Part shown: one piece after another, positions 41,985-62,979 of the stretch
Position numbering within the stretch: position 1 is the stretch's first letter
Layout of the letters: every line of letters begins with the position of its first letter
NCBI RefSeq assembly: GCF_004014875.1
Contig: NZ_CP034929.1
Coordinates: 992,001-1,056,000 of the forward strand
DNA: 64,000 bases
Direction of reading: 5' to 3'
Source: Nocardioides yefusunii
Lineage (GTDB): Bacteria > Actinomycetota > Actinomycetes > Propionibacteriales > Nocardioidaceae
The notes under the pieces: model-generated
Seen by the model: the letters and a program-made list of their open reading frames with translations, nothing else
Told to the model about the DNA's origin: nothing
Database searches by the model: none
Program-made: the position numbers and the translations under genes

Positions 41985-41990
41985 CAAATG

Positions 41991-42026
41991 CAGAAGGCCC
42001 TGATCCTCACGGATCAGGGCCTTCTG
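41991..42026 (+). terminator. Terminator of tRNA-fMet copy 2
   Basis: A perfect 16-pair stem (CAGAAGGCCCTGATCC and complement) with TCAC loop, then TCATTC. One base pair in the stem differs from copy 1, with both strands changed together. Confidence 0.9.
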
Positions 42027-42149
42027 TCATTCACGCCGGTGAGGCTGCGTGGTGCTGGTGAGGCGTTGGGGTGTGTGCGGGCCCACGTTTGGGGGTGACG
42101 TCGGGGCACGCGGGGCGTCATAGCCGCACGGGGGAACGATGATGGCGGG

Positions 42150-42782: not shown

Positions 42783-42795
42783 ACGTGCGTGAACG

Positions 42796-42831
42796 ACGAA
42801 GGGCCCCGTCCGTCAGGACGGGGCCCTTCGT
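42796..42831. terminator. Terminator between TRIC and ferredoxin reductase genes
   Basis: A perfect 16-pair stem (ACGAAGGGCCCCGTCC and complement) with GTCA loop between convergent genes; probably works for both. Confidence 0.85.
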
Positions 42832-42846
42832 GCTGCTGCCGGGGAA

Positions 42847-44184
42847 TCAGGCGCGAGCGGCGCCGATCATGTCCTCGCGGGTGGGGAGCTTGACGCGCAG
42901 ACGGTCCTGGGCCTCACCCAGGGCGATCTCGGCGGCGTCGATCTTCTCCCAGTCGGTCAGGGTGATGAAGTCGACGCCGCGCTCGCGCAGGAACGCGTCG
43001 ACGTCCTCGGTGGAGCGAGCCGTGGCGGTCTCGGTGGTGGTCTCCAGGACGTGGCCGACGGTCTCGGCGGCGTCGGACTTGGTGTGACCGATGAGGCCGA
43101 CCGGTCCACGCTTGACCCAGCCGGTGACGAAGGTGTTCGGGACGAACTCGCCGTCGATGCCGATCACGCGACCGCCGTCGTTGGGAATGACGAAGTTCTT
43201 CTCGTCGAACGGCAGGCCCGGGAGCGGGGAGGAGGCGTAGCCGACGGCGCGGTAGACCGACTGGACGGGCCAGTCGGTGAATTCGCCGGTGCCACGCACG
43301 GAGCCGTCGCCGACGAGCTCGGTGCGCTCGGTGCGGATGCCGACGACCTCGCCGTTCTCGCCGAGGATCTCGCTGGGGGCCTCCATGAAGTGGAGGTGGA
43401 TGCGGTGGTCCTTGCCCTCGATGTCGCGGCCGACCCAGTTGGCCAGGATGTCCAGGACCAGCTTGTGGGTCTTGTGCTTGGCGATGTGCTCCATCGAGTG
43501 GTCGTCGACCTCGAAACCCTCGGGGTGCACGATGACCTCGACGTTGGGCGAGTGGTTGAGCTCGCGCAGCTCCATCGGGGAGAACTTGGCGTACGCCGGG
43601 CCGCGGCGGGCGAAGACGTGGACGTCGGTGATCTTCTTGGCCTTGAGGCCGGCGTGGACCTGGGCCGGGATGTCGGTCACGAGCATCTCGTCGCCGGTCT
43701 TGGCGAGCACGCGGGCGACGTCGAGGGCGACGTTGCCGACGCCGATGACGGCCGTGTGGGTGCCGTCGCCGAAGTCCCACGTCTGGGGGACGTCGGGGTG
43801 GGAGTCGTACCAGGAGACGAAGTCGGCGGCACCGTAGGAGCGCTTGAGGTCCTCGCCGGGGATGCGCATGTCGCGGTCGGCCATGGCGCCGGTGGAGAAG
43901 ATGACGGCGTCGTAGAACTCAGCCAGGTCCTCGAGCTTGACGTCGGTGCCGAAGTCGACGTTGCCGACGAAGCGGACCTCGGGCTTGGCCATGACGCGCT
44001 GGAGAGCCTTGATGATCTCCTTGATCCGCGGGTGGTCCGGGGCGACGCCGTAGCGGACGAGGCCGAACGGTGCGGGGAGGCGCTCGAAGAGGTCGACGGA
44101 GACGTCGACGTCGGACTTGGTCAGGATGTCGGCGGCGTAGATTCCGGCAGGACCGGCACCGACCACAGCAACGCGGAGAGTCAT
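42847..44184 (-). CDS. Ferredoxin/adrenodoxin-NADP+ reductase (FprA-like)
   Basis: A 445-residue flavoprotein of the adrenodoxin reductase type. The FAD-binding VVGAGPAGIYAAD lies at the N terminus, YGVAPDHPRIKEI near 50 is the family signature, and VIGVGNVALDVARVLA near 150 starts the NADP domain, followed by HVFARRGPAYAKFSP. The C-terminal signature GWVKRGPVGLIGHTKSDA near 355 closes the NADP site. It passes electrons between NADPH and ferredoxin, probably serving cytochrome P450s or Fe-S enzymes. An ATG at 44193 (MGG ahead of MTLRV) is an alternative start; the GGGAGG there is too close to serve 44184 well. Divergent from a LysR gene. Confidence 0.92.
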   Translation of the reverse strand: MTLRVAVVGAGPAGIYAADILTKSDVDVSVDLFERLPAPFGLVRYGVAPDHPRIKEIIKALQRVMAKPEVRFVGNVDFGTDVKLEDLAEFYDAVIFSTGAMADRDMRIPGEDLKRSYGAADFVSWYDSHPDVPQTWDFGDGTHTAVIGVGNVALDVARVLAKTGDEMLVTDIPAQVHAGLKAKKITDVHVFARRGPAYAKFSPMELRELNHSPNVEVIVHPEGFEVDDHSMEHIAKHKTHKLVLDILANWVGRDIEGKDHRIHLHFMEAPSEILGENGEVVGIRTERTELVGDGSVRGTGEFTDWPVQSVYRAVGYASSPLPGLPFDEKNFVIPNDGGRVIGIDGEFVPNTFVTGWVKRGPVGLIGHTKSDAAETVGHVLETTTETATARSTEDVDAFLRERGVDFITLTDWEKIDAAEIALGEAQDRLRVKLPTREDMIGAARA

Positions 44185-44226
44185 GCCTCCCATTGTTCGC
44201 CCCTGCACCAACCTCACACAAAGCCA

Positions 44227-44254
44227 TTGTGACTGGGTTGTCACAAGGTAGCCT
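44227..44254 (+). promoter_or_regulatory. LysR-type operator and TAGCCT box
   Basis: TTGTGAC (44227-44233) and GTCACAA (44240-44246) form a perfect dyad with a six-base spacer, a T-N-A interrupted palindrome of the LysR-box type. TAGCCT (44249-44254) ends six bases before the lysR ATG. The dyad lies between the divergent lysR and ferredoxin reductase genes and overlaps the lysR -35, as expected for autorepression plus activation of the neighbour. Confidence 0.6.
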
Positions 44255-44260
44255 TGTGCC

Positions 44261-45196
44261 ATGCTTGGCAGCCATGTCCCGGACCTGCGTTCTCTCGAAC
44301 TGCTGCTTGCCGTCATGAGACATGGATCACTGGGAATGGCGGCTGCAGAGCTCGGCATCACCCAGCAGGCGGCCTCGTCGCGGATGCGCACGATGGAGGG
44401 GCTCGTGGGTGAGACCTTGCTGGCGCGCTCGCGCCACGGCTCGCGCCTCACCGAGACCGGACGACGTCTCGCCGACCTCGCGCTCCCGGTGGTCGAGGCT
44501 GCCCGGGTGCTCGACGCCGGCATCCGTGGCCTGAATCGCGAACGCAACGCCCACCTCGACGTCGCCGCCAGCCTCACCATCGCCGAGCACATGTTGCCCG
44601 GCTGGATGGTCGCCCTACGCTCACGCCACCTCGCGCTGGGGCGCTCGGCCCCTGAACTGACGATGACGGCCGCGAACTCCGCACGCGTCGTCGACCTGGT
44701 GCGCTCCGGTGCGGTCGACCTCGGTTTCATCGAGGGGCCGGAGGCGCCTGCCGACCTGGGCAGTCGCAAGGTGGGAGTCGACGAGCTCGTCGTCGTGGTG
44801 GGGCCCCATCATCCGTGGGCGCGGCTGCGTTCCCGCTCGGTGACCGCTGCCCAGCTCGCGATGACGCCGCTGGTGGTGCGCGAGGCCGGGTCGGGCACCC
44901 GCACCGTCCTGGAGCGTGCACTCGACGGGCTGGAGACGGTCCCGCCGGCGATCGAACTCTCCACCACTGCCTCGGTCCGCTCGGCGGTCGCTGCCGGAGC
45001 CGGCCCCGCGGCACTCGGCGCGCAGGCGGTGAGTGACGACATCGCCCAGGGCCGCCTGCTGCAGATCGAGGTTTCCGACGTCGACCTCACCCGGGTCCTG
45101 CACGCAGTGTGGGCCGGTGGTGAGCAGCCACCCGAGGGCCCCGCGCGCGACCTCGTCGCGTTGGCTGCGGCGTGGCGTTCGACCGTCGTCGGCTGA
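44261..45196 (+). CDS. LysR-family transcriptional regulator
   Basis: A 311-residue regulator. The winged helix-turn-helix is at about 8-66 (LRSLELLLAVMRHGSLGMAA, ITQQAASSRMRTMEG), followed by the linker helix and a periplasmic-binding-like effector domain with DLGFIEG near 155. It starts with a leaderless pattern and has a LysR-box dyad directly upstream, shared with the divergent reductase gene, which is its likely target. The effector is unknown. Confidence 0.9.
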   Translation: MLGSHVPDLRSLELLLAVMRHGSLGMAAAELGITQQAASSRMRTMEGLVGETLLARSRHGSRLTETGRRLADLALPVVEAARVLDAGIRGLNRERNAHLDVAASLTIAEHMLPGWMVALRSRHLALGRSAPELTMTAANSARVVDLVRSGAVDLGFIEGPEAPADLGSRKVGVDELVVVVGPHHPWARLRSRSVTAAQLAMTPLVVREAGSGTRTVLERALDGLETVPPAIELSTTASVRSAVAAGAGPAALGAQAVSDDIAQGRLLQIEVSDVDLTRVLHAVWAGGEQPPEGPARDLVALAAAWRSTVVG

Positions 45197-45278
45197 CGCC
45201 GCCGCGGACGCCGAGGAGACGGGCTGGCCGCGCCGATGGGGAATCTGGCCGAGCAACGTGTAGGTTCTGAATCACCGA

Positions 45279-45352
45279 CGCGGGGTGGAGCAGCTCGGTA
45301 GCTCGCTGGGCTCATAACCCAGAGGTCGCAGGTTCAAATCCTGTCCCCGCTA
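45279..45352 (+). tRNA. Initiator tRNA-fMet (CAU), copy 3
   Basis: Identical in all 74 bases to the other copies. The promoter differs (TGTAGGTT in place of TGTACGGT) and the CGAATAGGTGTT block is absent, but ATCACCGA just before the gene is shared in part. Confidence 0.95.
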
Positions 45353-45361
45353 CACAGATGC

Positions 45362-45395
45362 AGAAGGCCCTGGTCCTCACGGATCAGGGCCTTCT
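45362..45395 (+). terminator. Terminator of tRNA-fMet copy 3
   Basis: Fifteen pairs including one G-T pair (AGAAGGCCCTGGTCC with its near complement), TCAC loop. The stem is clearly related to that of copy 2. Confidence 0.85.
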
Positions 45396-45408
45396 TGCTG
45401 TCCGCTCT

Positions 45409-45450
45409 GAGTTGGCCGCTGCGAGTTGGCCGCTGTGAGTTGTCCACTGC
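45409..45450. repeat. Three 14-bp tandem repeats
   Basis: GAGTTGGCCGCTGC, then the same with a final T, then GAGTTGTCCACTGC, directly head to tail, between the third tRNA terminator and the end of the TSUP gene. Confidence 0.7.
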
Positions 45451-45464
45451 GACGCGTCAGACGT

Positions 45465-45497
45465 TCACCAGCCGGTCACCAGCCGCTCACCAGGCGG
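45465..45497. repeat. Three 11-bp tandem repeats
   Basis: TCACCAGCCGG, TCACCAGCCGC and TCACCAGGCGG follow each other without gaps. The last unit contains the stop codon of the TSUP gene. The 11-base period and TCACC core recall PhoP direct repeats, but the site lies at a gene's 3' end. Confidence 0.65.
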
Positions 45498-46191
45498 CGC
45501 CGATCAGTCCGAGGCCACCCGCCATCGACAGCGCGAGGACGCCGCCCCGGATCACGGGATCGGCGACCCGGGTGGCGACGACCATGCCCACCGCGGTGCC
45601 TGTGCACAGCGTCGCGACCTGTGCCGGTGAGGGCAGGTGCGCGCCGAGCAGCACCGCCGTCGCGGAGTTCTGCACGAGGAAGTACCAGTGCAGGTTGGCC
45701 CGAGCCACGCGCGGCGACCATCCGGCGTTGGCGGCGTAGATGCCGATCGCGGCACCACCCACACCGCCGACGACGCTCAGTCCGGCACTCGCGACGCCCG
45801 CCGCGGCGGCCGCCGTGGGGGTGCCGAGACGCGGGGAGCGGAGACCGCAGGCCAGCAGGGTCACCGCCGCCACGATCCCGACGCCACTGGCCAGCGCCAT
45901 CCACCGGACGTCGAGGTCGCTGACCGCCCAGGCCACCAGCGGAGTGCACAGCAGCGTCGGGACGAGCATCCCTGCGACGGTCCGGGGCTGGGCGTGGCGC
46001 CCGTCGCGGACCAGCGGGAGCACCGAACTGAGGGCCCCGAGGACGAGGGTTGCGGCCACGCCTTCACGCGGGCCCAGCAGCACCACCAGCATCGGGGCCG
46101 CCACCAGCGAGAAGCCCATGCCGGTGGCCGCCTGGGCGACCGCGCCGAGCAGGATGCCCAGCAGTGCGAGACCCAGGAGCAGCCCCGTCAC
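45487..46191 (-). CDS. TSUP family transporter (TauE/SafE-like)
   Basis: A 234-residue membrane protein with about seven hydrophobic helices and the TauE/SafE internal repeat: QAATGMGFSLVAAPMLVV near residue 20 and GLSVVGGVGGAAIGIYAAN near 145. The family exports sulfite, sulfonates or small organic acids. The GTG at 46189-46191 overlaps the TGA of the GPH transporter by four bases, making it the last gene of a coupled operon. The substrate may be a product of the flavin monooxygenase in the same operon. Confidence 0.85.
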   Translation of the reverse strand: MTGLLLGLALLGILLGAVAQAATGMGFSLVAAPMLVVLLGPREGVAATLVLGALSSVLPLVRDGRHAQPRTVAGMLVPTLLCTPLVAWAVSDLDVRWMALASGVGIVAAVTLLACGLRSPRLGTPTAAAAAGVASAGLSVVGGVGGAAIGIYAANAGWSPRVARANLHWYFLVQNSATAVLLGAHLPSPAQVATLCTGTAVGMVVATRVADPVIRGGVLALSMAGGLGLIGAAW

Positions 46192-47579
46192 TTCAACGGT
46201 GCGGAGGCGTCGAGGCGGCACAGGCGCTGGAACAGCACCGCCACCGTCATCAGCACCGCCGGCACGAGGGTGAAGCCGATCAGCACGGCGTCGACCGCGC
46301 CGTCGGTCTGGGGGACGCTGTCGCCGTTCACCGCGGCGGCGAATCCACCGACGGCGAGGACGGCCGAGTAGACGTAGGGGCCGATCGCGGTGCCGACGGC
46401 TTCGGTCGCCGTCCACACGCCGGTGTAGGACCCGGCGCGCGAGGAGCCGCTGCGCTCGGCGGCGGCCACGGCGTCGGGAACCATCGAGAACGCGAAGAGC
46501 TGCAGGCCCGCGAACGCGACGCCGAGCAGCACCACCACGGCGACGGTGACGGCGACGCCCAGACGCTCACCGACCACCAGCACGGCGGTCCCGACGATGA
46601 ACATCGTCTGGCTCAGCACCAGTCCACGCTGCTTGCCGATGCGGCGCGAGACCCGCATCCAGACCGGCGAGGCGAAGAGGGCCGGAGCCAGGAAGCCGCC
46701 CATCAGCACAGCGGTCAGGCCGCTGCGACCGAGCACGAACTCGGCGTAGAACGGCACGGCCGCCAGCACCAGGTGGGTGGTGGTTCCGGTGAACAGGTAG
46801 GAGAGCACCAACAGGCGGAAGTCGCGGTCGGCCCACGCCACCTTCACGTCGCTCCACGTGGAGCGGTGTCCGGCGTCGTCGGGGGTGCGGAAGCCGCAGG
46901 TCTCGGTGAGATGACGCACGCCGCGGATCGCGACCAGTGCGCTGAGCACCATCACCACGCCCAAGCACACCGCCATCATGGAGTAGCTCGAGCGGGCGCC
47001 GTCCTTGACCATCGCCGGGGCTACGACACCGGCTGCGAGCAGACCGACGGTCAGGAACACCATCCGCACCATGAAGACGCGGGTGCGCTCGTGGTAGCCG
47101 ACTTCCATGTCCGACGGCGTCGTCAGGTACGGCACCTGGAAGGAGGCGAAGAGCAGGTTGCCCACCACGTACCAGCCGGCCACCCACAGTGCCGCCGAGC
47201 CGCCGGTGAGTCCGGCCGGGACGGCGAACATCGCACCCATGGCGACAGCCAGCAGCACGCCCCAGCGCAGCATCGAGCGCCGGTGGCCGTGACGTCGGGC
47301 CAGCCGGTCCGACCAGGTGCCGAAGGTCGGGTGCACGACGGCGTCGAGGATCTTGGGCAGCAGCAGTGCCAGACCGGCCCAGAACGGCGAGACCCCGAGC
47401 GAGTTGGTCATGAAGTAGAGCAGCAGCATGCCGGGCACCGTCACCCAGACACCCATGCCCAGGGAGCCGGTCGCGTAGGCGGCCAGATCCGCGGGGCGGG
47501 CGCGGTTGCCCTCGGTGCCGGAGCTGCTCGCGGCCGCGGCGTCCTCGGGGGAGGCAGCGGCGACGTCGGTGCTGCTCAT
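46188..47579 (-). CDS. MFS transporter, glycoside-pentoside-hexuronide (GPH) cation symporter-like
   Basis: A 463-residue transporter with 12 helices. GSLGMGVWVTVPGMLLLYFM, the helix 2-3 loop DAVVHPTFGTWSDRLARRHG and SMLRWGVLL fit the GPH/MFS_2 group, whose members carry sugars but in actinobacteria also other substrates. An Ala/Ser/Glu-rich tail of about 30 residues precedes helix 1. The ATG at 47577-47579 overlaps the SDR stop, and its stop overlaps the TSUP start, so all are coupled. In context it may import the monooxygenase substrate. Confidence 0.87.
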   Translation of the reverse strand: MSSTDVAAASPEDAAAASSSGTEGNRARPADLAAYATGSLGMGVWVTVPGMLLLYFMTNSLGVSPFWAGLALLLPKILDAVVHPTFGTWSDRLARRHGHRRSMLRWGVLLAVAMGAMFAVPAGLTGGSAALWVAGWYVVGNLLFASFQVPYLTTPSDMEVGYHERTRVFMVRMVFLTVGLLAAGVVAPAMVKDGARSSYSMMAVCLGVVMVLSALVAIRGVRHLTETCGFRTPDDAGHRSTWSDVKVAWADRDFRLLVLSYLFTGTTTHLVLAAVPFYAEFVLGRSGLTAVLMGGFLAPALFASPVWMRVSRRIGKQRGLVLSQTMFIVGTAVLVVGERLGVAVTVAVVVLLGVAFAGLQLFAFSMVPDAVAAAERSGSSRAGSYTGVWTATEAVGTAIGPYVYSAVLAVGGFAAAVNGDSVPQTDGAVDAVLIGFTLVPAVLMTVAVLFQRLCRLDASAPLK

Positions 47580-48439
47580 CGCTCGGCCCCGGCCACGAGG
47601 TCGCGACGGGCGACGGCGCCCTGGGCCAGTTCGGCGTCGTCGAAGGCACCCGACGCGACCCGGGAGACGAACGTCGTGCGCACGATCCGGTCGGTCAACA
47701 GCGGGAAGTGCCGGGCCAGGAAGAACTCGACCCGGCCGCGCGGAGAGGTGGGCAGGTCGCGGCGCTGACGCTTCGACAGGGCAGCCGCCAGGACGGTGTC
47801 GACGACGCCCTCCACCGACTCGTACGAACTCATTCCCTCCAGGGAGAGGCCGGCCGCGGCGGTGGAGTCGTGGATCGGGGACCGCACCGAGGACGGGTAG
47901 ACGCAGCTGACGCCGACCAGTCCGCCCAACTCCATCCGCAGGGCGTCGGCGTAGGCCACCATCGCGCGCTTGGACGCTCCGTAGGCGGCTGCCAGCGGCA
48001 ACTGCATGACGGCCATCCGGGAGGCCACCATGACGACGCGGCCCCGGGAGGCGACCAGGGCCGGTGACGCGGCGGCGCTGACCCGCCACGTCCCCAGCAG
48101 GTTGATCTCCAGCTGACGTCGGACCTCGGCGCTCGGCGCGAGCTCTGCTGGGGCAGGGCCGCCGATGCCGGCGTTGTTGACCAGCAGGTCGAGCCCGCCG
48201 AGGATCTCGATCGCCCGGGCGACCGCGGAGCTGGTGCTCTCGTCGTCGGTCACGTCGCAGGCCAGCACGGTGACGGGGTCGTCCTCGCGGGGAGCGACGT
48301 CGAGCCCGACGACGTGGGCACCCATGCTGGTGAGGGTGGTGCTGAGTGCACGTCCGAAGGTGCCCGAGGCGCCGGTGATGACGACGCGCAGGCCGGTCGC
48401 GGAGCGGCGTCCGCCGCCGAGGAGGGTGTCGAGGTTCAT
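47576..48439 (-). CDS. SDR family NAD(P)-dependent oxidoreductase
   Basis: A 287-residue SDR. TGASGTFG near 22 is the nucleotide motif, NNAGIGG near 88, and YGASKRAM holds the catalytic Tyr and Lys near 155. The catalytic Ser position in the VMVASRMAV strand appears to be Ser in VASR. The C-terminal 60 residues are basic and amphipathic (RHFPLLTDRIVRTT), as in membrane-associated SDRs acting on lipidic alcohols or ketones. ATGA overlaps with both the monooxygenase and the transporter genes show one coupled operon. Confidence 0.87.
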   Translation of the reverse strand: MNLDTLLGGGRRSATGLRVVITGASGTFGRALSTTLTSMGAHVVGLDVAPREDDPVTVLACDVTDDESTSSAVARAIEILGGLDLLVNNAGIGGPAPAELAPSAEVRRQLEINLLGTWRVSAAASPALVASRGRVVMVASRMAVMQLPLAAAYGASKRAMVAYADALRMELGGLVGVSCVYPSSVRSPIHDSTAAAGLSLEGMSSYESVEGVVDTVLAAALSKRQRRDLPTSPRGRVEFFLARHFPLLTDRIVRTTFVSRVASGAFDDAELAQGAVARRDLVAGAER

Positions 48440-49815
48440 GCGGAGGTCTCCTGCGTGGCGGTGGTGGTCGAGGCGTCGGTCGTGGTGACGGGGACGAACG
48501 GGGCGGAACCCTCGGCGAGACGGCGTCGTCCGGCGTCGAGCTCACGGGTGGTGTCGGCCAGGTAGCGGTCGAAGTCGATCCGCATCGCGGGGCGCTTCTC
48601 GCCCCACCGTTCGCGGGCGGCGACGAGGTCGGCGGCAGCCCGGGCCTGCTGAGCGGCGGGGGAGGGAAGGGCGTATCGGCCAGCGAGGTGGGCGGCGACG
48701 AGGTTCGCCTGCGCCTCCACGACGGGCAGCGCTGCACCGGTGGACTGCATGAGTCCGACGAAGGCCAGCGAGGGGTCCTGCAGGTGGAAGACGCGGTGGT
48801 GCAGTGGCATCGTCTGCGGGTCGTCGCCGAGCCAGGTGCTGTCCAGGAACGGGATGGTCACCCGGTAGCCGGTGGCCCAGACGATGACGTCGGCCTGTTC
48901 GCGGCGCCCGTCGGTGAAGACCACCGCGTCGCCGTCGAGACGCTCGATGCCCGGACGCGAGACCACGGCGCCGTGGGTGAGGCGGTGCAGGATCGTGTCG
49001 GAGATCGTGGGGTGGTTCTGGAAGAAGCCACCGGCGGGAGCGGGGAGGCCGTACTGCTCCGGGCGTCCCACGGCCAGACGCAGCGTGGTCTCCGCGATCC
49101 GCTGCCGGACCTTCCACGGCAGCGCGGCCATGGCGGCGCCGGTGGCGTCGGCGGGCTTGCCGAAGAGGTACTTGGGCAGGATGTGCACGCCGTGGCGGGC
49201 CGAGAGCATCACCGGGTGCTCGGTGACGTAGGAGGCGTCGACGGCGATGTCCATCGCGGAGTTCCCCATGCCGACCACGACGACGCGACGGTCGCGGTAG
49301 GTCTCGGCGCTGCGGTGGTCGTGGGCATGCATCTGGAGGCCGTCGAACGCGCCCGGGTAGGCCGGCGAGGGCCACTTGGGGTCCCAGTTGTGGCCGTTGG
49401 CGACGACGACGGAGTCGAACTCCTCGGTGGTGGCGTCGTCACTGGTCACGGCCCAGCGGCCGGTGGCGAGGCGGGTGACCTGCTCGACGCTGGTGGAGAA
49501 ACGGATCCGTTCGGTGACGCCGAAGGCGTCGGCGTAGTCGGCCAGGTAGCCCGCGACGAGGTCGGCCGAGGGGTAGTCGGGCCACGCCGCCGGCATCGGG
49601 TAGGCGGCGAACTCGGTGCGTCCCTTGCTGGTGTTGAGGTGGAGGGAGTCGTAGGCCGGGGACAGGCCACTGGAGTTGCCGCGGACCCAGAGTCCTCCGG
49701 CGCGATCGCCCTTCTCGTAGGTGACGACGTCGGCGCCGATGCCGACCAAGGCCTTGGTGGCGGCCAGTCCGGCAGCTCCGGCGCCGATGACGGCGACGCG
49801 CACGGGGTGGTTCAT
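48436..49815 (-). CDS. Flavin-containing monooxygenase (FMO/Baeyer-Villiger type)
   Basis: A 459-residue flavoprotein. The FAD motif VIGAGAAGLAATKAL opens the protein, and the second Rossmann motif VVGMGNSAMDIA is near 183. Between them, YPGAFDGLQMHAHDHR resembles the FMO fingerprint FxGxxxH. ATGYR near 310 is the conserved late FAD motif. It should oxygenate a nucleophilic heteroatom or a ketone using NADPH and O2. First gene of a four-gene operon, with GGAG upstream of the ATG at 49813-49815. A PucR-type regulator gene is divergent. Confidence 0.88.
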   Translation of the reverse strand: MNHPVRVAVIGAGAAGLAATKALVGIGADVVTYEKGDRAGGLWVRGNSSGLSPAYDSLHLNTSKGRTEFAAYPMPAAWPDYPSADLVAGYLADYADAFGVTERIRFSTSVEQVTRLATGRWAVTSDDATTEEFDSVVVANGHNWDPKWPSPAYPGAFDGLQMHAHDHRSAETYRDRRVVVVGMGNSAMDIAVDASYVTEHPVMLSARHGVHILPKYLFGKPADATGAAMAALPWKVRQRIAETTLRLAVGRPEQYGLPAPAGGFFQNHPTISDTILHRLTHGAVVSRPGIERLDGDAVVFTDGRREQADVIVWATGYRVTIPFLDSTWLGDDPQTMPLHHRVFHLQDPSLAFVGLMQSTGAALPVVEAQANLVAAHLAGRYALPSPAAQQARAAADLVAARERWGEKRPAMRIDFDRYLADTTRELDAGRRRLAEGSAPFVPVTTTDASTTTATQETSA

Positions 49816-49934
49816 CTCAGGCTCCTCGGAGGACGACCGGCGGGGGTGGCCGCAGTCAGTGTGGTCTGAGGCACAACGCTAGGGCCCCGAAAGGCCGGCG
49901 AGGGTGGAATCCGGCACCCGAAAAGAGTGTGTAC

Positions 49935-49950
49935 TTGTGTTCAGTCACAA
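49935..49950. promoter_or_regulatory. Dyad between the PucR-type gene and the monooxygenase operon
   Basis: TTGTG (49935-49939) and CACAA (49946-49950) form a dyad with a six-base spacer in the 165-base divergent region. It is a candidate operator for the PucR-type regulator. Confidence 0.4.
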
Positions 49951-49980
49951 CCGGACGGTGCTCTGCGGCACGCTGGGACC

Positions 49981-51177
49981 ATGAGCGCAGCAGTCACGCA
50001 CGGGGCCGGCCTGACCTCGGGACGTCCCGAAGGGGCAGGAGAGCCAGCTGGGTGGGCGGCCTTCGTCGAGCTCATGGAGCACGTCCTGGCCGACGAGACC
50101 TTGCTGCCGCAGGTGGTGGCGGGGGTCCGTTCGATGGTCACCGAGGTCGCCTTCCTGCCGGTCTCGGACATGGCCGGCCACACCCGTGCGCTGCTGACTG
50201 CGGGCACACGTGCCTTGGCTGGACGCCGCGGACCCACCGAGGCCGAGCTCGCGTTCGTGGAGGAGCTCGGAGTGGCCCGGGCTGCCCAGGGCATTCCGGT
50301 CGACGTGCTGCTCAGTGCGGTGCACGTCTCCGAACGCGTGGTGTGGAGCCGGGCCCGGGAGACGGCGGCCGCCGCTGGCCTGCCGCCGGAAGTGCTGCTC
50401 GATGCCCGGGAACTCTATGACGACTGGGCCGGCGTGGTCCGCTCGCGGCTGATCCGGGCCCACCGGGAGGCCGACGCGGCTGCTGCCGGTCCGGGGCGTG
50501 ACCGCCGTGCCGTGCTGCTGCGACGCCTGCTGGAGGGCGGGTCGGTGGCGGCGCTGGCCGCGGCCGAACTCGGTCTGCCCTCCTCCGGTGTGTGGGTCGC
50601 GGTGACGCGGGGTGATGGCGACGGCGGGCTCAGGCGGTTGGCCCGGGTCGCGGGGGAGACCCGCGGTGTCACCACGCTCGGGGTGCGCGGGCGAGTGGGT
50701 GGCGCCCTCGTCGCGGTGCTGGGGGCGGCCCCGGCGAGTCCGGGCCCGGAGGCGGACGTCGTCGCGGTGGCAGGTCCGGTGGCCGCGGACGAACTCGGTG
50801 CGGCGCATCGTCAGGCCTTGGCTGCGCTGACCGCGGCCGAAGCGGTGCGTCGTGCAGGTGTGGTGCACGTCGCCGAGGTCGCCGCCGTGGCGGCGTTGCT
50901 CTCGCGCCCCGACCTGGAGCAGGTGCTGGTGGCCGGTCAGGAAGGGGCTGGGCGCGCGCTGGGGCCCTCCCGTGCAGCAGTCGCGCGCACCGTGCGCCGG
51001 TGGGCGGAGTGTGATCGGGACGCGGTGGCGGTGGCGGGGGAGCTGTTCGTGCACCCCAACACCGTGCGCAACCGTGTGCAGCGGTTCGCGGAGGTGACCG
51101 ACATCGATCCGTGGTCGGCGCTGGGCGGCATGCAGGCGTGGTGGCTGGCGCGCGCCTGGGACGACCTCGAGGAGTAG
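49981..51177 (+). CDS. PucR/CdaR-family transcriptional regulator
   Basis: A 398-residue regulator with the actinobacterial PucR plan: an N-terminal helical region (about 15-165, RsbRD-like), a middle degenerate GGDEF-like domain (190-290), and a C-terminal helix-turn-helix, AGELFVHPNTVRNRVQRFAE near 365. It likely activates the divergent FMO-SDR-transporter operon in response to its substrate. The ATG at 49981 is used; an in-frame upstream ATG at 49927 would cover the putative operator. No tracer of the ligand is visible. Confidence 0.85.
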   Translation: MSAAVTHGAGLTSGRPEGAGEPAGWAAFVELMEHVLADETLLPQVVAGVRSMVTEVAFLPVSDMAGHTRALLTAGTRALAGRRGPTEAELAFVEELGVARAAQGIPVDVLLSAVHVSERVVWSRARETAAAAGLPPEVLLDARELYDDWAGVVRSRLIRAHREADAAAAGPGRDRRAVLLRRLLEGGSVAALAAAELGLPSSGVWVAVTRGDGDGGLRRLARVAGETRGVTTLGVRGRVGGALVAVLGAAPASPGPEADVVAVAGPVAADELGAAHRQALAALTAAEAVRRAGVVHVAEVAAVAALLSRPDLEQVLVAGQEGAGRALGPSRAAVARTVRRWAECDRDAVAVAGELFVHPNTVRNRVQRFAEVTDIDPWSALGGMQAWWLARAWDDLEE

Positions 51178-51260
51178 GTCGCCCAGGGAGGCCCGCTCAG
51201 TGCGACGGGCGGGGCGGATGTGACTTCCTGGGATCGTCGGTGTACCGTTGGTTTCACCGA

Positions 51261-51334
51261 CGCGGGGTGGAGCAGCTCGGTAGCTCGCTGGGCTCATAAC
51301 CCAGAGGTCGCAGGTTCAAATCCTGTCCCCGCTA
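51261..51334 (+). tRNA. Initiator tRNA-fMet (CAU), copy 4
   Basis: Identical in all 74 bases to copies 1-3. Its upstream TGTACCGTTGGTTTCACCGA matches copies 1 and 2 except for one base in the -10, but the CGAATAGGTGTT block is missing. Confidence 0.95.
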
Positions 51335-51340
51335 CAAAGG

Positions 51341-51377
51341 CCAGAGGCCCGGATCCTTCGAGGATCCGGGCCTCTGG
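51341..51377 (+). terminator. Terminator of tRNA-fMet copy 4
   Basis: A perfect 17-pair stem (CCAGAGGCCCGGATCCT and complement) with a TCG loop. Confidence 0.9.
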
Positions 51378-57071: not shown

Positions 57072-58304
57072 GTGGGAGGCAACCACGCCCACACCCCGAC
57101 CGTGGAGACCCGCCGCATGCGCCAGGCGGCACTGGCCGTCATGGTGCCTTTGGGCTTGCTCACCCTCGTCGCGCTGGTCTGGCTCTGGCCCGGCTCCATC
57201 GAGCGTGAGGAACGTGATCAGCCCGCACACATCCCCGCGAACGTCCTCAGCGTCGACGCGGAGGGCTGTCCTGAGGACCTCTCCACCGCGCAGGAGCCCT
57301 GCGGCACCGCGGTACTGGAGATGCACCCCGGCGACGACGCGGCAGCCTCGGCCGGTGTCGCGGACGGTGACCGGATCGAGGTCCCGTTGCCGCACGGCCC
57401 CGGAGCGGTCAGCGTCTCCGCGGGGGACGACGTCGTGGCGACCGGAACCGACAGTGTCGGCGTCGATGCGGTGTGGGGCGTCGTTGACCACCAGCGTGGC
57501 GGCGGCCTCTGGCTGCTCGCCATCGGATTCACCCTCGCGGTCCTCGCCTTCGGACGCCTGCGCGGACTGCGCTCCCTGCTCGGGCTCGGCGTCACCTTCG
57601 CTCTGATCACCCTCTTCTTCGTCCCCGCCGTGCTCGCCGGGACCGCTCCGGTGCTGGCCGCCCTCATCACCTGTGCGGCCGTCGTGCTGGTGGTCCTGCC
57701 GCTCACCCACGGCACCGGACTGGTCGCGACCGTCGCGGTGCTCGGGACCTTGGCCAGCCTCGCCGTCACCTGGCTGCTGTCGTGGGCAGCGGTCTCCGCG
57801 CTGCATCTCAGCGGCGTCACCGACGACCTCTCGATGGCGATCACCCTCAACCACGGCATCGACGCCCAGGGGCTGCTGCTGGCCGGCATCATGATCGGCT
57901 CCCTGGGAGTCCTCGACGACGTGACGGTCACCCAGTCCGCCACGGTCGCCGAGATCGCCCGGGCCAACCCCGAGCACCGCACCCGCGACCTCTACGCCGC
58001 CGGAGCCCGGGTGGGCCGTGCCCACATCGCGTCGGTGATCAACACGATCGTGCTGGCCTACGCCGGATCCTCGCTGCCGCTGCTGGTGCTGATCATGGCC
58101 AACAACGACTCCTTCACCGCGATCGTCACCGACCAGTTGATCGCCCAGGAAGTGGTCCGCAGCGTCGTGGCGACCGTCGGTCTCGTCGCTGCGGTCCCGA
58201 TGACGACGCTGCTCGCGGCCTGGGTGGGACGCGGCTTCGCCGCCGAGCAGGACGACTACTCCGACGATCGTGCGCTGCACATCGAAGAGGCCTACCGGGA
58301 CTGA
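57072..58304 (+). CDS. YibE/F family membrane protein
   Basis: A 410-residue protein with a first membrane segment at about 22-42, an extracytoplasmic domain of some 100 residues (HIPANVLSVDAEGCPED onward, with two Cys) and then about seven helices. The YibE/F signatures DQRGGG-like VDHQRGGGLWLLAI, GIMIGSLGVLDDVTVTQSA and SVINTIVLAYAGSSLPLLVL are present. The family is common in Firmicutes and Actinobacteria and has no proven function. The GTG at 57072 follows AGGAGG by four bases. Confidence 0.9.
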   Translation: MGGNHAHTPTVETRRMRQAALAVMVPLGLLTLVALVWLWPGSIEREERDQPAHIPANVLSVDAEGCPEDLSTAQEPCGTAVLEMHPGDDAAASAGVADGDRIEVPLPHGPGAVSVSAGDDVVATGTDSVGVDAVWGVVDHQRGGGLWLLAIGFTLAVLAFGRLRGLRSLLGLGVTFALITLFFVPAVLAGTAPVLAALITCAAVVLVVLPLTHGTGLVATVAVLGTLASLAVTWLLSWAAVSALHLSGVTDDLSMAITLNHGIDAQGLLLAGIMIGSLGVLDDVTVTQSATVAEIARANPEHRTRDLYAAGARVGRAHIASVINTIVLAYAGSSLPLLVLIMANNDSFTAIVTDQLIAQEVVRSVVATVGLVAAVPMTTLLAAWVGRGFAAEQDDYSDDRALHIEEAYRD

Positions 58305-58316
58305 CGCCTCGGCAGG

Positions 58317-59093
58317 TCAGGGGAGTTCGAGCGAGGTCCGGACGACGTCGTCCAGTGCTGCCTCAGGGTCGGTGCAGGTCACGCGCCCCCAGCCGTCGGC
58401 GCTCGCCCATGCAGTGCGCATGGCGTCGTCGTGGCGGAGGTGAGTGGGACGTGAGCGCAGTTGCTGTGTCACCCGGATGCCGAGCCACGTCGGGACCACG
58501 CCGGGTCCCGGCGCCGCATGACGCCATGCCCCGTCGTGGTGGGTGAACAGGGTTCCTGCAGTGCTGGAGGCGACGGTGCCGTCAGGGCGGGCCCACAGCC
58601 CGACGGCACGGACGCCCGCCGTCGGCTCGAGCGTCGTGAGGTGGCGGGTGGCCAGGACCTGCTCGTGGGTGGAGATCATCGGCAGGCTGGTCAGCGGTGA
58701 ACCGACCGGCGTGGGCCAGGGGAGGAGGTGGAACCGTGCCCCGTCCCGGCCGGGGGCACCGGGATCGCTCGGCATCGGGCCGGGGGAGAGACGCGTGAGT
58801 TGCGGCCCGAGCGGGCCCCGGAAGACCGGCTCCCAGCCACCCTCGAGCAGCACCGGACCGGTGGCCGCCAGCGCGGCGTCGAACGGGGCGTCGTCGACGG
58901 CGGCGCCCAGCAACGCGGCGATCTCACCGACCTGGGACCGGACGAACCCGACCGCCTCGGCACGGAGGTGCGGGGCGCACGCAGGGACCGCGACCCGGAA
59001 GCCGCAGCCCAGGAACTCACCCACACGCACGCTCCACAGGCGCGGGTCGAGGGCGACCCGTCGGCCGTCCTCGAACCACTGCGTCTGAGTCAC
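58317..59093 (-). CDS. Lysine-free protein resembling class IV aminotransferases; third gene of the murL operon
   Basis: A 258-residue protein I do not recognise with certainty. The segment GVRAVGLWARPDGTVASSTA, then GTLFTHHDGAW and GPGVVPTWLGIRV, resembles the C-terminal fold of class IV PLP enzymes (branched-chain and D-amino acid aminotransferases, aminodeoxychorismate lyase). However, the protein contains no lysine at all, so it cannot form the PLP Schiff base. It starts with a GTG eight bases after the murD2 stop. It may bind a related ligand, or be a degenerate paralogue kept for another role. Cysteines, Trp and Pro are frequent; no membrane segment or signal peptide. Confidence 0.55.
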   Translation of the reverse strand: MTQTQWFEDGRRVALDPRLWSVRVGEFLGCGFRVAVPACAPHLRAEAVGFVRSQVGEIAALLGAAVDDAPFDAALAATGPVLLEGGWEPVFRGPLGPQLTRLSPGPMPSDPGAPGRDGARFHLLPWPTPVGSPLTSLPMISTHEQVLATRHLTTLEPTAGVRAVGLWARPDGTVASSTAGTLFTHHDGAWRHAAPGPGVVPTWLGIRVTQQLRSRPTHLRHDDAMRTAWASADGWGRVTCTDPEAALDDVVRTSLELP

Positions 59094-59101
59094 CGCGCGT
59101 G

Positions 59102-60439
59102 TCAGTCGACGACGAGGGCCGCGGCGCGGAACGCCTTGGAGCGAGCCTCGTAGTTCGCGAACTCGTCGTAGCTGGGAGCGCCGGGGGAGAGCAGCACCAC
59201 CTCGGCGGTGTTCTCGTCAGAGCGGGCCCACGTCACGGCAGCGTCGAAGGAGTCGAACCGTCGTCCCAGACCCGGGTGCTCGGCCTCGATCCGGGCACCG
59301 GAGGGCCCGATCAGCAGCAGCGTCACGTCGTTGTTGTCGCGCACGTGGTCGAGCAGCGGGGTGAAGTCGAGGCCACGGTCGTCGCCACCCACCACGACGC
59401 TGACCCGACGGCCCGCGACACCGGCCAGAGAGGCGATCACGGCCTCCGGAGCGGTGGCCAGGGAGTCGTCGATCCAGGTGCGGTGGTCGGCGGAGTCGAT
59501 CCGCTCCATCCGGTACGGCAGCGGCGTGAACGTCGCCAGCGCCTCCACCGCGGTCTCGCGCGTCACCCCGAAGAGAGCGGTGATCCGCAGTGCGATCGCG
59601 ATGTTGCCGGCGTGGTGGCGGCCCACCAGTGGCAGGTCGAGGGCGTCGAGCCACGAGCCGTCGGCCCAGACCAGCGCACCTTCCTCGTCGACGCCCACCC
59701 AGTTCGGGTCGGTGCCGTCCTCGTCGGTGTCGTAGCCGGTCACGAGCAGACGTGCGTTGGGGGAGATCTGCGCCGCGACCCGGGTCAGCACGCGGGCGTC
59801 GTCACCGGGGACGACGACGTACTCGGGGTCGTGCGCGACGGCGTTGAGCTTGTCGGAGTAGTACTCCTCCAGACCTCCGTGCCAGGTGAGGTGCTCAGGG
59901 AACAGCGAGGTGACCGCGACGATGCGCGGGCTCACCGTCAGGGACTGCGCCTGGTAGCTGGAGAGCTCCATGACGACGACCTCGGCCGGTGGGTCGGTCT
60001 CGGTGAGCACCGAGGTGCCGATGTTGCCGCGCAACGAGGAGCGGAACCCGGCGTGGGTGAGCACGTGGTGCACCAGCGTCGCAGTGGTCGACTTGCCCTT
60101 CGTGCCGGTGACGGCGACGACGCGGGCGGCGTTCTCGCTGATCCACAGATCGGTGAGGGAAGTGATCGCGACCCCGGACTCGACCAGCGCGGTGTACAGC
60201 TCGTGCACCTTCGGGACGCCGGGTGACTTGATCACGACGTCGGCGCCGAGCAGACGCTCACGGCCCGCAGCACCGTAGGCAGCCTCGGGGTTCGCGCTGC
60301 CGTCGGTCGGGGCCTCACGGTCGGGCTCGGCACCGGAGACGTCCACGCCGAGGGCGCGGCAGTGCTCCAGGACGGAGGCGCCCTCGCGTCCCAGGCCCCA
60401 GACGACGACGCGCTGGCCGGACAGGTCAGAGAACTTCAC
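59102..60439 (-). CDS. murD2: Mur ligase: MurD2-like UDP-MurNAc-L-Ala:L-Glu ligase
   Basis: A 445-residue Mur ligase. An N-terminal Rossmann-like domain (VVVWGLGREGASV near 10) is followed by the ATP site GTKGKST (112-118) and the central domain with MELSSYQAQ, FPEHLTWHGG and the lysine-bearing YYSDKLNA loop; the last domain carries YRMERI, DDSLATAPEA and VVGGDDRGLDF. This is the MurD subfamily. Because it is joined to a murL homologue, I infer that it adds L-glutamate (MurD2) rather than D-glutamate. Ordinary MurD cannot be excluded from sequence by eye. The GTG at 60437-60439 overlaps the end of murL by 14 bases. Confidence 0.75.
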   Translation of the reverse strand: MKFSDLSGQRVVVWGLGREGASVLEHCRALGVDVSGAEPDREAPTDGSANPEAAYGAAGRERLLGADVVIKSPGVPKVHELYTALVESGVAITSLTDLWISENAARVVAVTGTKGKSTTATLVHHVLTHAGFRSSLRGNIGTSVLTETDPPAEVVVMELSSYQAQSLTVSPRIVAVTSLFPEHLTWHGGLEEYYSDKLNAVAHDPEYVVVPGDDARVLTRVAAQISPNARLLVTGYDTDEDGTDPNWVGVDEEGALVWADGSWLDALDLPLVGRHHAGNIAIALRITALFGVTRETAVEALATFTPLPYRMERIDSADHRTWIDDSLATAPEAVIASLAGVAGRRVSVVVGGDDRGLDFTPLLDHVRDNNDVTLLLIGPSGARIEAEHPGLGRRFDSFDAAVTWARSDENTAEVVLLSPGAPSYDEFANYEARSKAFRAAALVVD

Positions 60440-61784
60440 GAGCAGCCTTCTCGTACGACGTGGGGAGCAGGTGGTCGTCGGAGAACCCGAACGCGGCGTC
60501 GACCGAGACGGCGTCGAGGAACGCGTCGGCGACCTCGGGCAGTTCGAAGAACTCATGGCCCTTCCAGTCCGCGTGGTCACGCAGCAGGGTCAGTGCGGCG
60601 CGGCACTCGTCGGGCTCGCCGACGCACTCGAACGGCTTCAGACGACCGCCGACGTTGAGGAGCTCCAGGAAGCCCTCGCGCTGCGCGGGGTCGGCGAGCA
60701 GGTCGCGTCCGGCGAAGATCGCCTGCAGTTCGGTGCGGCCCATGAACGGGGCCAGGCAGAGGAAGACGAAGTGGCACTTGGGGCACTCGCCGCACCAACG
60801 GCGACGCTTGGAGGCGTCGAGGTGGAAGGAACGGTTGCAGCTGGTGAAGACCGGGTGGTAGTCCTCCAGCCGGGCGAAGTGGCGCATGATCGCCAGCTCG
60901 GTGAGGGGACGCAGGAACGAGAAGTACCGCACCGGGTGGCCCTCGATCGCGGTGGTGAGCAGACGCTCGAAGCCGATGCCCTTGCTCCACTGGTGGTTGA
61001 CGTCGATGCCCTCCCACGCGACGTTGCCGAACGACGACGACGCCTCGTTGGAGAAGACCACCGCGTCCTGGCCGTTGCGGAGCGCGGTGAGCACGCCGAC
61101 GAGCGAGTTCACCGCGGTGACGGGGACGTGGCCGTTGAGCGCACCGGCGGCGTTGAGTTCGAAGAGCAGCGGGTCCAGCGTGCGGCGTGCCACCAGCAGC
61201 GGCAGACCGGCCTCGACAGCAGTGGCCTCGATCGGCTCGTAGGAGTTGACCGAGAACAGAGTGGACTCGACGCCGAGGTCACGCAGCTGCTCGATCGTGA
61301 CGATCGAGTCCTTGCCGCCACCGACCGCGACCAGCGGACGGGTCGGGGCCTGCGGAGTGCGGGAGTCGGTCGGCGCGACCGCGTTGGGCAGTTCGGGAGC
61401 CTCGATCGTGGGGCGCAGCGCGTGCGGCACCTGGTTGCGGTAGGCGTACTCGCCCAGACCGTTGAGGATCACCTCGGCCAGGAAGGTGCGCTCACGCGGG
61501 CTCAGGCCGGCCGGGACCGAGTACGTCGTCGGGGCCAGCGCCTTGTAGTAGGACAAGCTCGCGGCCAGCGACAGCAGACGCAGCACGTCGGTGGGGAGAT
61601 CGGCGCCGGTCGATGCGTCGGTGCCGTCACCGGGCAAGGTGATCCGCTCGGTGAACTCGAGCGCCCCCTCGTGATCACGGGAGGTGATCCGGAAGGGCAG
61701 CAGCACCGTGCCGTCGGCGTGGGCCGAGGGCTCGAGTGCGGTGAAGACCAACCGGTCGGACGGCTCGGACAACCACTGACGCAT
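60426..61784 (-). CDS. murL: MurL-like UDP-MurNAc-L-Ala-L-Glu epimerase
   Basis: A 452-residue protein. Key features are the PP-loop-like VAVGGGKDSIVTIEQL near 152-168, VNSYEPIEATAVEAGLPLLV, FSNEASSSFGN with a following ID-x-N-H-Q-W-S-K-G segment, and a cysteine motif WCGECPKCHFVF near 330. This matches MurL, the ATP-dependent glycopeptidyl-glutamate epimerase of Xanthomonas oryzae, which inverts the terminal L-Glu of UDP-MurNAc-L-Ala-L-Glu. The companion Mur ligase gene lies directly downstream and overlaps it. Together they bypass glutamate racemase. The ATG at 61782-61784 has TAGGCT ending seven bases upstream. Confidence 0.8.
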   Translation of the reverse strand: MRQWLSEPSDRLVFTALEPSAHADGTVLLPFRITSRDHEGALEFTERITLPGDGTDASTGADLPTDVLRLLSLAASLSYYKALAPTTYSVPAGLSPRERTFLAEVILNGLGEYAYRNQVPHALRPTIEAPELPNAVAPTDSRTPQAPTRPLVAVGGGKDSIVTIEQLRDLGVESTLFSVNSYEPIEATAVEAGLPLLVARRTLDPLLFELNAAGALNGHVPVTAVNSLVGVLTALRNGQDAVVFSNEASSSFGNVAWEGIDVNHQWSKGIGFERLLTTAIEGHPVRYFSFLRPLTELAIMRHFARLEDYHPVFTSCNRSFHLDASKRRRWCGECPKCHFVFLCLAPFMGRTELQAIFAGRDLLADPAQREGFLELLNVGGRLKPFECVGEPDECRAALTLLRDHADWKGHEFFELPEVADAFLDAVSVDAAFGFSDDHLLPTSYEKAAREVL

Positions 61785-61791
61785 GCCTGCC

Positions 61792-61797
61792 AGCCTA
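61792..61797 (-). promoter_or_regulatory. TAGGCT box of the murL operon
   Basis: TAGGCT on the minus strand ends seven bases before the murL ATG, so the operon is probably transcribed as a leaderless mRNA. It lies about 140 bases from the divergent hydratase promoter. Confidence 0.5.
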
Positions 61798-61931
61798 CTG
61801 CTGGGCAGGGCGCCGCCCGGTCTCGCCGGACCGGGTGTGGCGCACCAGTCATCACCGTGACTCCGCACCGCGTCACGTGCCCGAGACGTGGGACGTCCAC
61901 GAGTTCGGCCCGCAGGGTGGGGGTGCGCCTG

Positions 61932-61937
61932 CACAAT
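61932..61937 (+). promoter_or_regulatory. CACAAT box ahead of the hydratase gene
   Basis: CACAAT ends seven bases before the ATG at 61945, the same arrangement as upstream of plsC at 16063. Confidence 0.4.
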
Positions 61938-61944
61938 GGCGCGC

Positions 61945-62979
61945 ATGGCCAAGACGAACGCAGGCAACTTCTTCGAGGACTTCACCGTCGGACAGGTGAT
62001 CGAGCACGCCACGCCGCGCACGATCACCGAGGGCGACCGAGCGCTGTACGGGGCGATCTACCCGACCCGCTTCGCGCTCCCGTCGTCGTCGGAGTTCGCC
62101 CACCAGGTGGGCCTGACCGACGCGCCCGTGGAGGAGCTCATCGCCTTCCACGTCGCCTTCGGCAAGACGGTCCCCGACATCTCCCTCAACGCCGTGGCCA
62201 ACCTCGGGTACGCCGAGTGTCGGTTCAAGCGTCCCGTCGTCGCCGGTGACACCCTCACCACCACCTCGGAAGTGATCGGCCTCAAGCAGAACTCCAACGG
62301 CAAGTCGGGCGTCGTCTACGTCCGCTCCACCGCGGTCAACCAGCGCGAGGAGATCGCGATCGAGTGGGCCCGCTGGGTGATGGTGCACAAGCGCGACGTC
62401 GACGCCCCCGCCCCCGAGACCGTGATCCCCGACCTCGCCGGTTCCGTGGCTCCCGAGAGCCTGATCATCCCCGAGGGCCTCGACTTCTCCGAGTACGACT
62501 TCGCCTCCGCCGGTGAAGAGCACCGTTTCGACGACTACACCGTCGGGGAGAAGATCGACCACGTCGACGGCGTGACGCTCACCGACGCCGAGCACATGAT
62601 GGCCACCCGTCTGTGGCAGAACACCGCCAAGGTGCACTTCAACACCGAGGCCCGCCCTGACGGCCGCCGCCTCGTCTACGGCGGCCACGTCATCTCCCTG
62701 GCCCGTGCGCTCTCCTTCAACGGGCTCGCCAACGCCCAGCTGATCGCGGCCATCAACGCCGGCTCGCACGTCGCCCCGGCCTTCGGTGGCGACACCGTCT
62801 ACGCCTGGAGCGAGGTGCTGGAGAAGGCCGACACCGATGCCCCCGGCGTCGGCGCCCTGCGCCTGCGTCTGGTGGCCACGAGCGGTCGTGACGAGTCGAT
62901 GACGCTGCGTGGCGAGGACGGGAAGTACGCCCCCGGCGTTCTCCTCGACCTCGACTACTGGGCCTTCGTCCCGCGCTGA
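61945..62979 (+). CDS. MaoC-family double hotdog hydratase, mesaconyl-CoA hydratase-like
   Basis: A 344-residue protein with two hotdog domains. The opening KTNAGNFFEDFTVGQVIEHA and the segment FHVAFGKTVPDISLNAVANLGYA closely resemble mesaconyl-CoA hydratase (beta-methylmalyl-CoA dehydratase) of the ethylmalonyl-CoA pathway. YVRSTAVNQREE and HFNTEARPDGRRLVYGGHVISLARAL give the second hydratase region. It would interconvert mesaconyl-CoA and beta-methylmalyl-CoA for C2 assimilation. No other pathway enzyme is in the window, so a different enoyl-CoA substrate remains possible. The MAKTN start is chosen over an ATG nine bases upstream because of the CACAAT spacing. Confidence 0.8.
   Translation: MAKTNAGNFFEDFTVGQVIEHATPRTITEGDRALYGAIYPTRFALPSSSEFAHQVGLTDAPVEELIAFHVAFGKTVPDISLNAVANLGYAECRFKRPVVAGDTLTTTSEVIGLKQNSNGKSGVVYVRSTAVNQREEIAIEWARWVMVHKRDVDAPAPETVIPDLAGSVAPESLIIPEGLDFSEYDFASAGEEHRFDDYTVGEKIDHVDGVTLTDAEHMMATRLWQNTAKVHFNTEARPDGRRLVYGGHVISLARALSFNGLANAQLIAAINAGSHVAPAFGGDTVYAWSEVLEKADTDAPGVGALRLRLVATSGRDESMTLRGEDGKYAPGVLLDLDYWAFVPR

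Follow-up and report, generated by a model that had tools for sequence, protein, structure and literature searches.

The stretch analysed here (the window) comprises 64,000 nucleotides of the Nocardioides yefusunii genome (contig NZ_CP034929.1, positions 992,001 to 1,056,000). Its reverse strand carries a murL-murD2 operon that probably serves the entry of D-glutamate into peptidoglycan. The genome to which it belongs (one contig of 3,321,975 bases, G000 in our set) retains at the division and cell wall (dcw) locus a truncated murD. Many relatives have kept theirs as well, and this points to a further, non-catalytic job of MurD. Operons like this one have been described before; what is new is the degraded MurD that persists in the dcw cluster. 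The gene murL (60426..61784) codes for a protein of 452 amino acids (aa), P0001, with the motifs VAVGGGKDS and WCGECPKC. It overlaps murD2 (59102..60439; GTG start; P0002, 445 aa) by 14 bases (60426..60439), an arrangement that suggests translational coupling. These coordinates confirm the description, in a first-pass annotation of the window, of a PP-loop-like protein whose gene overlaps that of a MurD-type ligase. A third, murL-associated gene (58317..59093; P0003, 258 aa) lies on the same strand and starts 8 bases past the murD2 stop. Positions 58100-62100 gave no match to promoter or terminator patterns.

P0001 matches the NCBIfam MurL model NF041275 with 374 bits (E-value 6e-112) and does not reach the model cut-off of 700. 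The model is named for Xanthomonadales and was passed by two of the four scanned proteins, both from Lysobacteraceae (821 and 794 bits; Stenotrophomonas and one other), while the MurL of Micromonospora ATCC 39149 (L086) misses the same cut-off with 407 bits. P0001 is 49% identical to the Micromonospora protein over 396 positions. The first-pass annotation had named a lack of conserved residues as an argument against its own MurL assignment; P0001 carries all 51 invariant columns of a 32-row MurL alignment, which has P0001 and L086 themselves among its rows, and the assignment stands. The best match of the MurL profile to solved structures had an E-value of only 0.47.

P0002 scores 300 bits against the murD model TIGR01087 (E-value 3e-89), and the profile E-values of the two proteins rule out chance as the source of these sequence-based identities. 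It retains the Mur ligase catalytic residues K115, N138, E157, H183, K198, R302 and D317 (E. coli numbering, used throughout). The roles of K115, N138, E157, H183 and K198, like the list of ligand residues used below, are those that we take to hold from E. coli MurD structures. At D182, K348, K319, A414 and L416, positions taken from PMC8788868, P0002 has E, R, L, P and Y, a set identical in the MurD2 of Micromonospora ATCC 39149. The first two positions, which set specificity for L-Glu, correspond to E197 and R358 of Xanthomonas oryzae MurD2, whose double mutant switches to D-glutamate (D-Glu) (PMC8788868). The L-Glu-type E and R of P0002 are in line with its earlier identification as MurD2. 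Among 87 MurD2 rows, made up of P0002 and the proteins of 86 loci (L111 and L203 being the same gene), R is found at K348 in all 87, and the D182 position is E in 75 and D in 12. A MurD2 match is missing at five of 91 loci, namely L071, L132 and L133, where the sequence ends at most 140 bases from murL, and L076 and L091. Proteins with D instead of E and a retained R are coded at L053, L054, L073, L111 (= L203), L112, L115, L120, L127, L131, L134 and L136, so either the published E/R pair is dispensable in some MurD2 proteins or their specificity differs. In a tree, one branch (Shimodaira-Hasegawa-like approximate likelihood ratio test, SH-aLRT, 99) separates 20 MurD2 proteins, P0002 included, from 11 canonical MurDs. 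The first-pass annotation would have given up its reading for a ligase that was the only murD of the genome and clustered with canonical MurD; P0002 is indeed the sole full-length MurD, yet it groups with MurD2. Judged from its sequence, the operon is thus a further example of the published MurL/MurD2 kind. That kind is already known in actinobacteria and so is not new here: Micromonospora, Actinoplanes, Verrucosispora and Salinispora are named for the pathway in PMC8788868, according to which Micromonospora ATCC 39149 uses MurD2/MurL and in vitro work confirmed the orthologues of Micromonospora and Salinispora.

The normal MurD and MurI, said in the first-pass annotation to be absent from the window, are indeed not there, and neither was detected elsewhere in the genome. 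A search of the single-contig genome with the MurI model TIGR00067 gave no match. Its two class-IV aminotransferases are IlvE and a PabC-like protein, and no D-amino-acid transaminase was found over cut-off (the PabC-like protein has 69.5 bits for a cut-off of 277). P0002 is the one full-length MurD; the remaining match to the MurD model is MurC. Two candidates for MurI were rejected. One, an aspartate/glutamate family racemase coded at L010:4128-4856, reaches 27 bits for a cut-off of 146.65 and instead scores 190 bits with TIGR00035, and a weak PF01177 match (L007) scores as an EutA-like protein. The genome checks proposed with the first-pass annotation, for murI, a D-amino-acid transaminase and a second murD, thus returned nothing over cut-off or full-length. 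The same pattern extends to related genomes, drafts being kept whatever their completeness. MurL is present in six of 149 Nocardioidaceae genomes, none of which has MurI. Among the 143 without MurL, MurI is matched in 139 (137 over cut-off) and MurD is over cut-off in 138, with rows reaching profile position 439 or beyond; the four lacking MurI (G016, G017, G045 and G095) are drafts, 62-97% complete. A further 39 MurL genomes were found by name, from loci that are the best 80 of 571 relatives; among these loci, those closest to the N. yefusunii MurL belong to Nocardioidaceae. Each has one MurD locus over cut-off; MurI is over cut-off in one, with weaker matches in eight. The one is Gordonia alkaliphila (G173), with MurI at C1:979292-980044 (160 bits) and no second MurD over cut-off. 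The alternative offered with the first-pass annotation, a second pathway beside normal MurD and MurI, is ruled out by the absence of MurI, the single full MurD and the six MurI-less MurL genomes of Nocardioidaceae. MurL/MurD2 is probably the only route of glutamate into peptidoglycan here, its reactions being known from relatives and assigned in this organism from sequence and genome content.

The murD gene of the dcw locus is found in its usual place, between mraY and ftsW, both named by NCBIfam (genome 2178091-2179128, reverse strand; L008:8091-9128). Its start overlaps the mraY stop as ATGA. The product, P0004, has 345 aa and aligns to positions 1-302 of the 441 of TIGR01087 with 143 bits, below the cut-off of 212. 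The truncation is observed directly. P0004 does not have the three domains of a canonical MurD: the C-terminal, glutamate-binding domain is absent, the P-loop with its lysine is lost (TGSRGRAR) and there is no carbamylated lysine. The coding composition is retained, with guanine plus cytosine fractions of 0.73/0.47/0.91 by codon position. As the P-loop and the carbamylated lysine are gone, ligase activity of P0004 is not expected from its sequence. The dcw MurDs of the other five MurL Nocardioidaceae are short as well (309-346 aa). Loss of catalytic residues is general when MurL genomes are compared: of their 19 distinct dcw MurDs, none has K198 or K319, one has H183, three have N138, and five each have K115 and E157; all six are present in 68 of 68 canonical MurDs. 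K348 is missing from all 19. The contacts to UDP-N-acetylmuramic acid (UDP-MurNAc) at the T16 position, G73 and N138 are mostly lost too. The canonical set combines 38 chosen Nocardioidaceae proteins with the best 30 scores of Microbacteriaceae, which makes it lean to typical MurD. Searches of the open-licence PMC papers, by their listings and the openings of abstracts, found no account of MurL organisms whose dcw MurD is truncated or inactive.

The remnant is confined to part of the MurL genomes. These number 50 (six Nocardioidaceae, 39 found by name and five Microbacteriaceae), and the mraY-ftsW interval could be read in 43, the dcw interval not being captured in G156, G161, G172, G173, G185, G216 and G219. 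A MurD remnant lies in the interval in all 21 genomes of Propionibacteriales (13) and Micrococcales (8), orders assigned through the NCBI taxonomy of families. None was detected in the intervals of the 22 genomes of other groups, their families taken from record titles: 12 Micromonosporaceae, six Mycobacteriaceae, one member of Acidimicrobiia, one alphaproteobacterium and two Lysobacteraceae. Three matches within those 22 intervals have E-values of 4 to 6, the level of chance. In Spirilliplanes yamanashiensis (L196:3900-7600), ftsW and mraY are separated, at the expected place of murD, by some 3.6 kb of unrelated sequence in which one frame looks by eye like a response regulator. Twenty of the 21 remnants are without the C-terminal domain. 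The last, of the Microbacteriaceae genome G229 (L274:4259-5797, 512 aa), is full-length and degraded, with no lysine at K198, K319 or K348; found in a genome with MurL/MurD2 (L274, L275), it may represent an early stage of retirement. The Propionibacteriaceae genome G163 (L283), examined as a test after the pattern had been noticed, has a truncated remnant without P-loop. The set of 19 distinct proteins omits this later addition and L172, which differs from L048 by 2 of 969 bases. The reading frame is uninterrupted in 20 remnants (19 distinct), of which all but that of G229 (512 aa) measure 309-371 aa, and is intact in G163 too; canonical dcw MurDs have 476-524 aa (68/68). In the alignment of the 19, nine of the 18 truncated proteins stop at E. 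coli residues 296-300. The aligner places the last residues of the other nine elsewhere (279 to 437), the L174 frame stopping early, at 279.

The repeated origin of this state is seen in two trees. A species tree built from MraY, FtsW, MurG and MurC of 38 canonical and 11 MurL Nocardioidaceae with three outgroups needs nine changes of the MurL state in a quick version and eight in a careful one, and a single clade of the 11 is rejected (p 5e-8). A tree of the N-terminal and middle domains of 19 remnants and 68 canonical MurDs needs ten changes and rejects one clade of remnants (p 9e-8). Remnants group with their own host group, seven among Microbacteriaceae MurDs and 11 on the Nocardioidaceae side, except for one Intrasporangiaceae row of unsure placement. 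The changes are read as losses, not gains, because a lineage would hardly recover both MurI and a domain once lost. The switch thus occurred repeatedly, at least about seven to eight times. The murL gene itself moves between families, and remnants co-occur with different MurL lineages.

Constraint on the remnants is relaxed overall but uneven. The canonical residue is retained on average in 31% at 14 ligand or catalytic columns and in 80% at 91 other conserved columns (Mann-Whitney p 7e-7); 56 of these 91 are intact in at least 17 of the 19 remnants. Conservation outside the catalytic sites is clearest in Nocardioidaceae. There, three 15-residue windows over P0004 256-300 (DVVEGARAIGFT...DRAFI..R..SAA) have mean pairwise identities of 0.83/0.68/0.69 among 11 remnants and 0.84/0.68/0.69 among 38 canonical proteins, while identity falls from 0.94 to 0.32 in the P-loop window and from 0.63-0.66 to 0.19-0.34 in the K198 region (211-240). 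The ratio of non-synonymous to synonymous substitution rates (dN/dS) points the same way in the pair G000-G054, with 1.13 in catalytic windows, 0.16 in the block and 0.34 in the rest.

These observations are brought together if the MurL/MurD2 route replaced MurI and MurD and the dcw murD of Propionibacteriales and Micrococcales consequently lost catalysis, the rest of the protein being kept for a second, non-catalytic task of MurD; we regard this as likely. MurD2 and MurL would supply glutamate entry, taking over from MurI and MurD. The freed dcw murD would then lose its catalytic residues and C-terminal domain, and selection would retain the N-terminal domain together with the greater part of the middle one. 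The task is perhaps a protein-protein contact with the division and cell wall machinery encoded nearby (MraY, FtsW, FtsQ and others). Binding of substrate is a less likely task, because the UDP-MurNAc contacts are mostly lost. With less assurance, although still on the favourable side, we propose that MurD of both orders is a two-job protein, with a structural or regulatory part in that machinery, whose enzyme part was shed independently, seven or eight times at the least.

Several points weigh against this interpretation. The MurD tree unites six of the Nocardioidaceae remnants (99), contrary to the species tree; the cause may be transfer of a truncated gene, relaxation common to the six or long-branch attraction, and because of the cluster the MurD tree alone forces fewer changes, at least four in Nocardioidaceae and at least three in Micrococcales. 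The conserved block is weaker in Micrococcales (0.64/0.54/0.53 in eight remnants versus 0.73/0.60/0.63 in canonical proteins). Its dN/dS gives a less distinct picture in other comparisons: 0.43 for G108-G150, 0.41 for Pimelobacter versus canonical G006, 0.30 for G000 versus canonical G085 and 0.13 for G060 versus canonical G071, where the rest of the gene has 0.72. Overall pairwise identity decreases from 0.72 to 0.54 in Nocardioidaceae and from 0.61 to 0.45 in Micrococcales, and dN/dS of the whole remnant is 0.29-0.70 in five pairs with a remnant for 0.15-0.40 in five canonical pairs; it is for this lower identity and higher ratio that constraint is called relaxed. These ratios were obtained by the simple Nei-Gojobori method (NG86) on GC-biased codons and vary, so that reliance is placed on contrasts inside one gene. 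We infer that the remnant protein is produced, and likewise that selection at the protein level causes the conservation. Lastly, contacts of Mycobacterium tuberculosis MurD with FtsW, FtsQ, FtsZ, Wag31 and SepF are reported in PMC3605390, and the six MurL Mycobacteriaceae whose interval was read all have no murD remnant; such a role is thus not general in actinobacteria.

The relaxation just described would also be expected if the switch were recent and the dcw murD remnants functionless pseudogenes on their way to complete decay. Stages of decay can be recognized, the P-loop lysine being retained in Pimelobacter (L170), Microbacterium (L173, L177), Leucobacter (L176) and G229 (L274), and complete loss of the gene is evidently feasible, as in the 22 genomes of other groups. 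Against plain decay stand the uninterrupted frames of all 20 remnants and of G163, the intact coding composition of P0004, the region-specific conservation, which is a direct observation, and the fact that separate lineages were cut back to about the same domain border (the nine of 18 mentioned above). Pseudogenes are therefore an unlikely explanation, although the strongest of the alternatives.

Less probable still is that a truncated murD moves horizontally with murL, perhaps as a partner of MurL/MurD2, from a single or a few origins. Mobility of murL between families and the cluster of six Nocardioidaceae remnants would fit such transfer, which is disfavoured: the remnants sit between mraY and ftsW, away from murL, are kept alongside different MurL lineages and fall by host group on a tree that rejects a single clade. 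Equally doubtful is that the remnant is kept at the nucleic acid level, for translation coupling, RNA stability or an ftsW promoter. The start of P0004 inside the mraY stop, with ftsW next, is compatible with this, but in 19 of 20 cases the remnant stops 17 to 199 bases before the point where ftsW is estimated to start, which makes coupling to ftsW unlikely, conservation is at the amino acid level in the tested pairs, and MurL genomes of other groups manage without a remnant. That the operon serves another peptide or a secondary metabolite instead of the D-Glu route, as the third gene without assigned role and the joint presence of MurL and MurI over cut-off in Gordonia alkaliphila might hint, is highly improbable given that MurI is absent from all six MurL Nocardioidaceae and not over cut-off in 38 of 39 further MurL genomes, and that no further full MurD was found.

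If a retained non-catalytic task of MurD is the correct explanation, MurL genomes offer Mur ligase alleles in which nature has already achieved a separation of function. Whether Mur ligases are enzymes only or also parts of complexes is an open question, as essential catalysis normally masks a second role. Here catalysis has apparently been removed repeatedly and part of the protein kept, so that the second role becomes testable where MurD is not needed as an enzyme, and the block P0004 256-300 and the N-terminal domain are where the contact may be sought. MurL/MurD2 has been proposed as a target for narrow-spectrum agents, and the route is here extended to Nocardioidaceae, Microbacteriaceae and some Mycolicibacterium, which are not listed in the part of PMC8788868 at hand.

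The third gene of the operon has no match in Pfam or NCBIfam, and the predicted structure of P0003 has a mean pLDDT (predicted local distance difference test) of 46. Its proposal as a possible new component is borne out as regards linkage to murL: among the 149 Nocardioidaceae genomes, strong homologues are found only in G000, G054, G108 and G076, that is in four of the six with MurL and none of the 143 others, these four being themselves in the query alignment. A homologue also comes next after murD2 in L055, L051, L059 and L058 (the latter cut by the contig end). In G076, murD2 is followed by a Cu-oxidase_4 gene and then by the P0003 homologue. This Cu-oxidase_4 gene is of PgeF type (L054:9982-10755), and none was picked after ftsZ in the dcw region of G076 (L050); N. 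yefusunii has a PgeF-like gene after ftsZ (L008:1131-1898; 129.5 bits for a cut-off of 141). The P0003 profile gives weak matches in 63 genomes without MurL (E-values 1e-9 to 3e-4, with 18 candidates scored per genome), and the two inspected are PabC-like open reading frames (ORFs). When the profile of P0003 was compared with those of two class-IV proteins, they did not match. The family profile aligns a proline where the PabC-like ORFs carry a lysine, which we take to be the pyridoxal phosphate lysine. P0003 may thus have degenerated from a PabC-like protein and be remotely related to class-IV aminotransferases. Elsewhere in the window, positions 41652-51373 of the forward strand hold four tRNA-Met (CAT) genes, at 41673, 41911, 45279 and 51261, within a 134-nt repeat whose other copies are 76-90% identical to the first.

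The closest known systems are the MurD2/MurL pairs of X. oryzae (XOO_1320/XOO_1319), Micromonospora and Salinispora (Feng et al. 2017, via the available part of PMC8788868). They share with the present operon the adjacency of the two genes (in X. oryzae by locus tag), the MurL invariants, the E and R of MurD2 and the lack of a glutamate racemase. The present system differs in its host family, Nocardioidaceae, unlisted in that part, in its third, murL-linked gene, and in the degraded dcw MurD, which is kept here and absent from the 12 Micromonosporaceae and two Lysobacteraceae read. With canonical dcw MurD, P0004 has in common its place between mraY and ftsW and an alignment over the N-terminal and middle domains; unlike it, P0004 is devoid of C-terminal domain, P-loop and carbamylated lysine. 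The mycobacterial Mur synthetases provide a precedent for the proposed task, with contacts to FtsW, FtsQ, FtsZ, Wag31, SepF, PknA and PknB reported from mycobacterial protein fragment complementation (M-PFC; PMC3605390). That case differs in that its MurD is active and belongs to another order, and the Mur synthetases were not seen to contact one another in that study.

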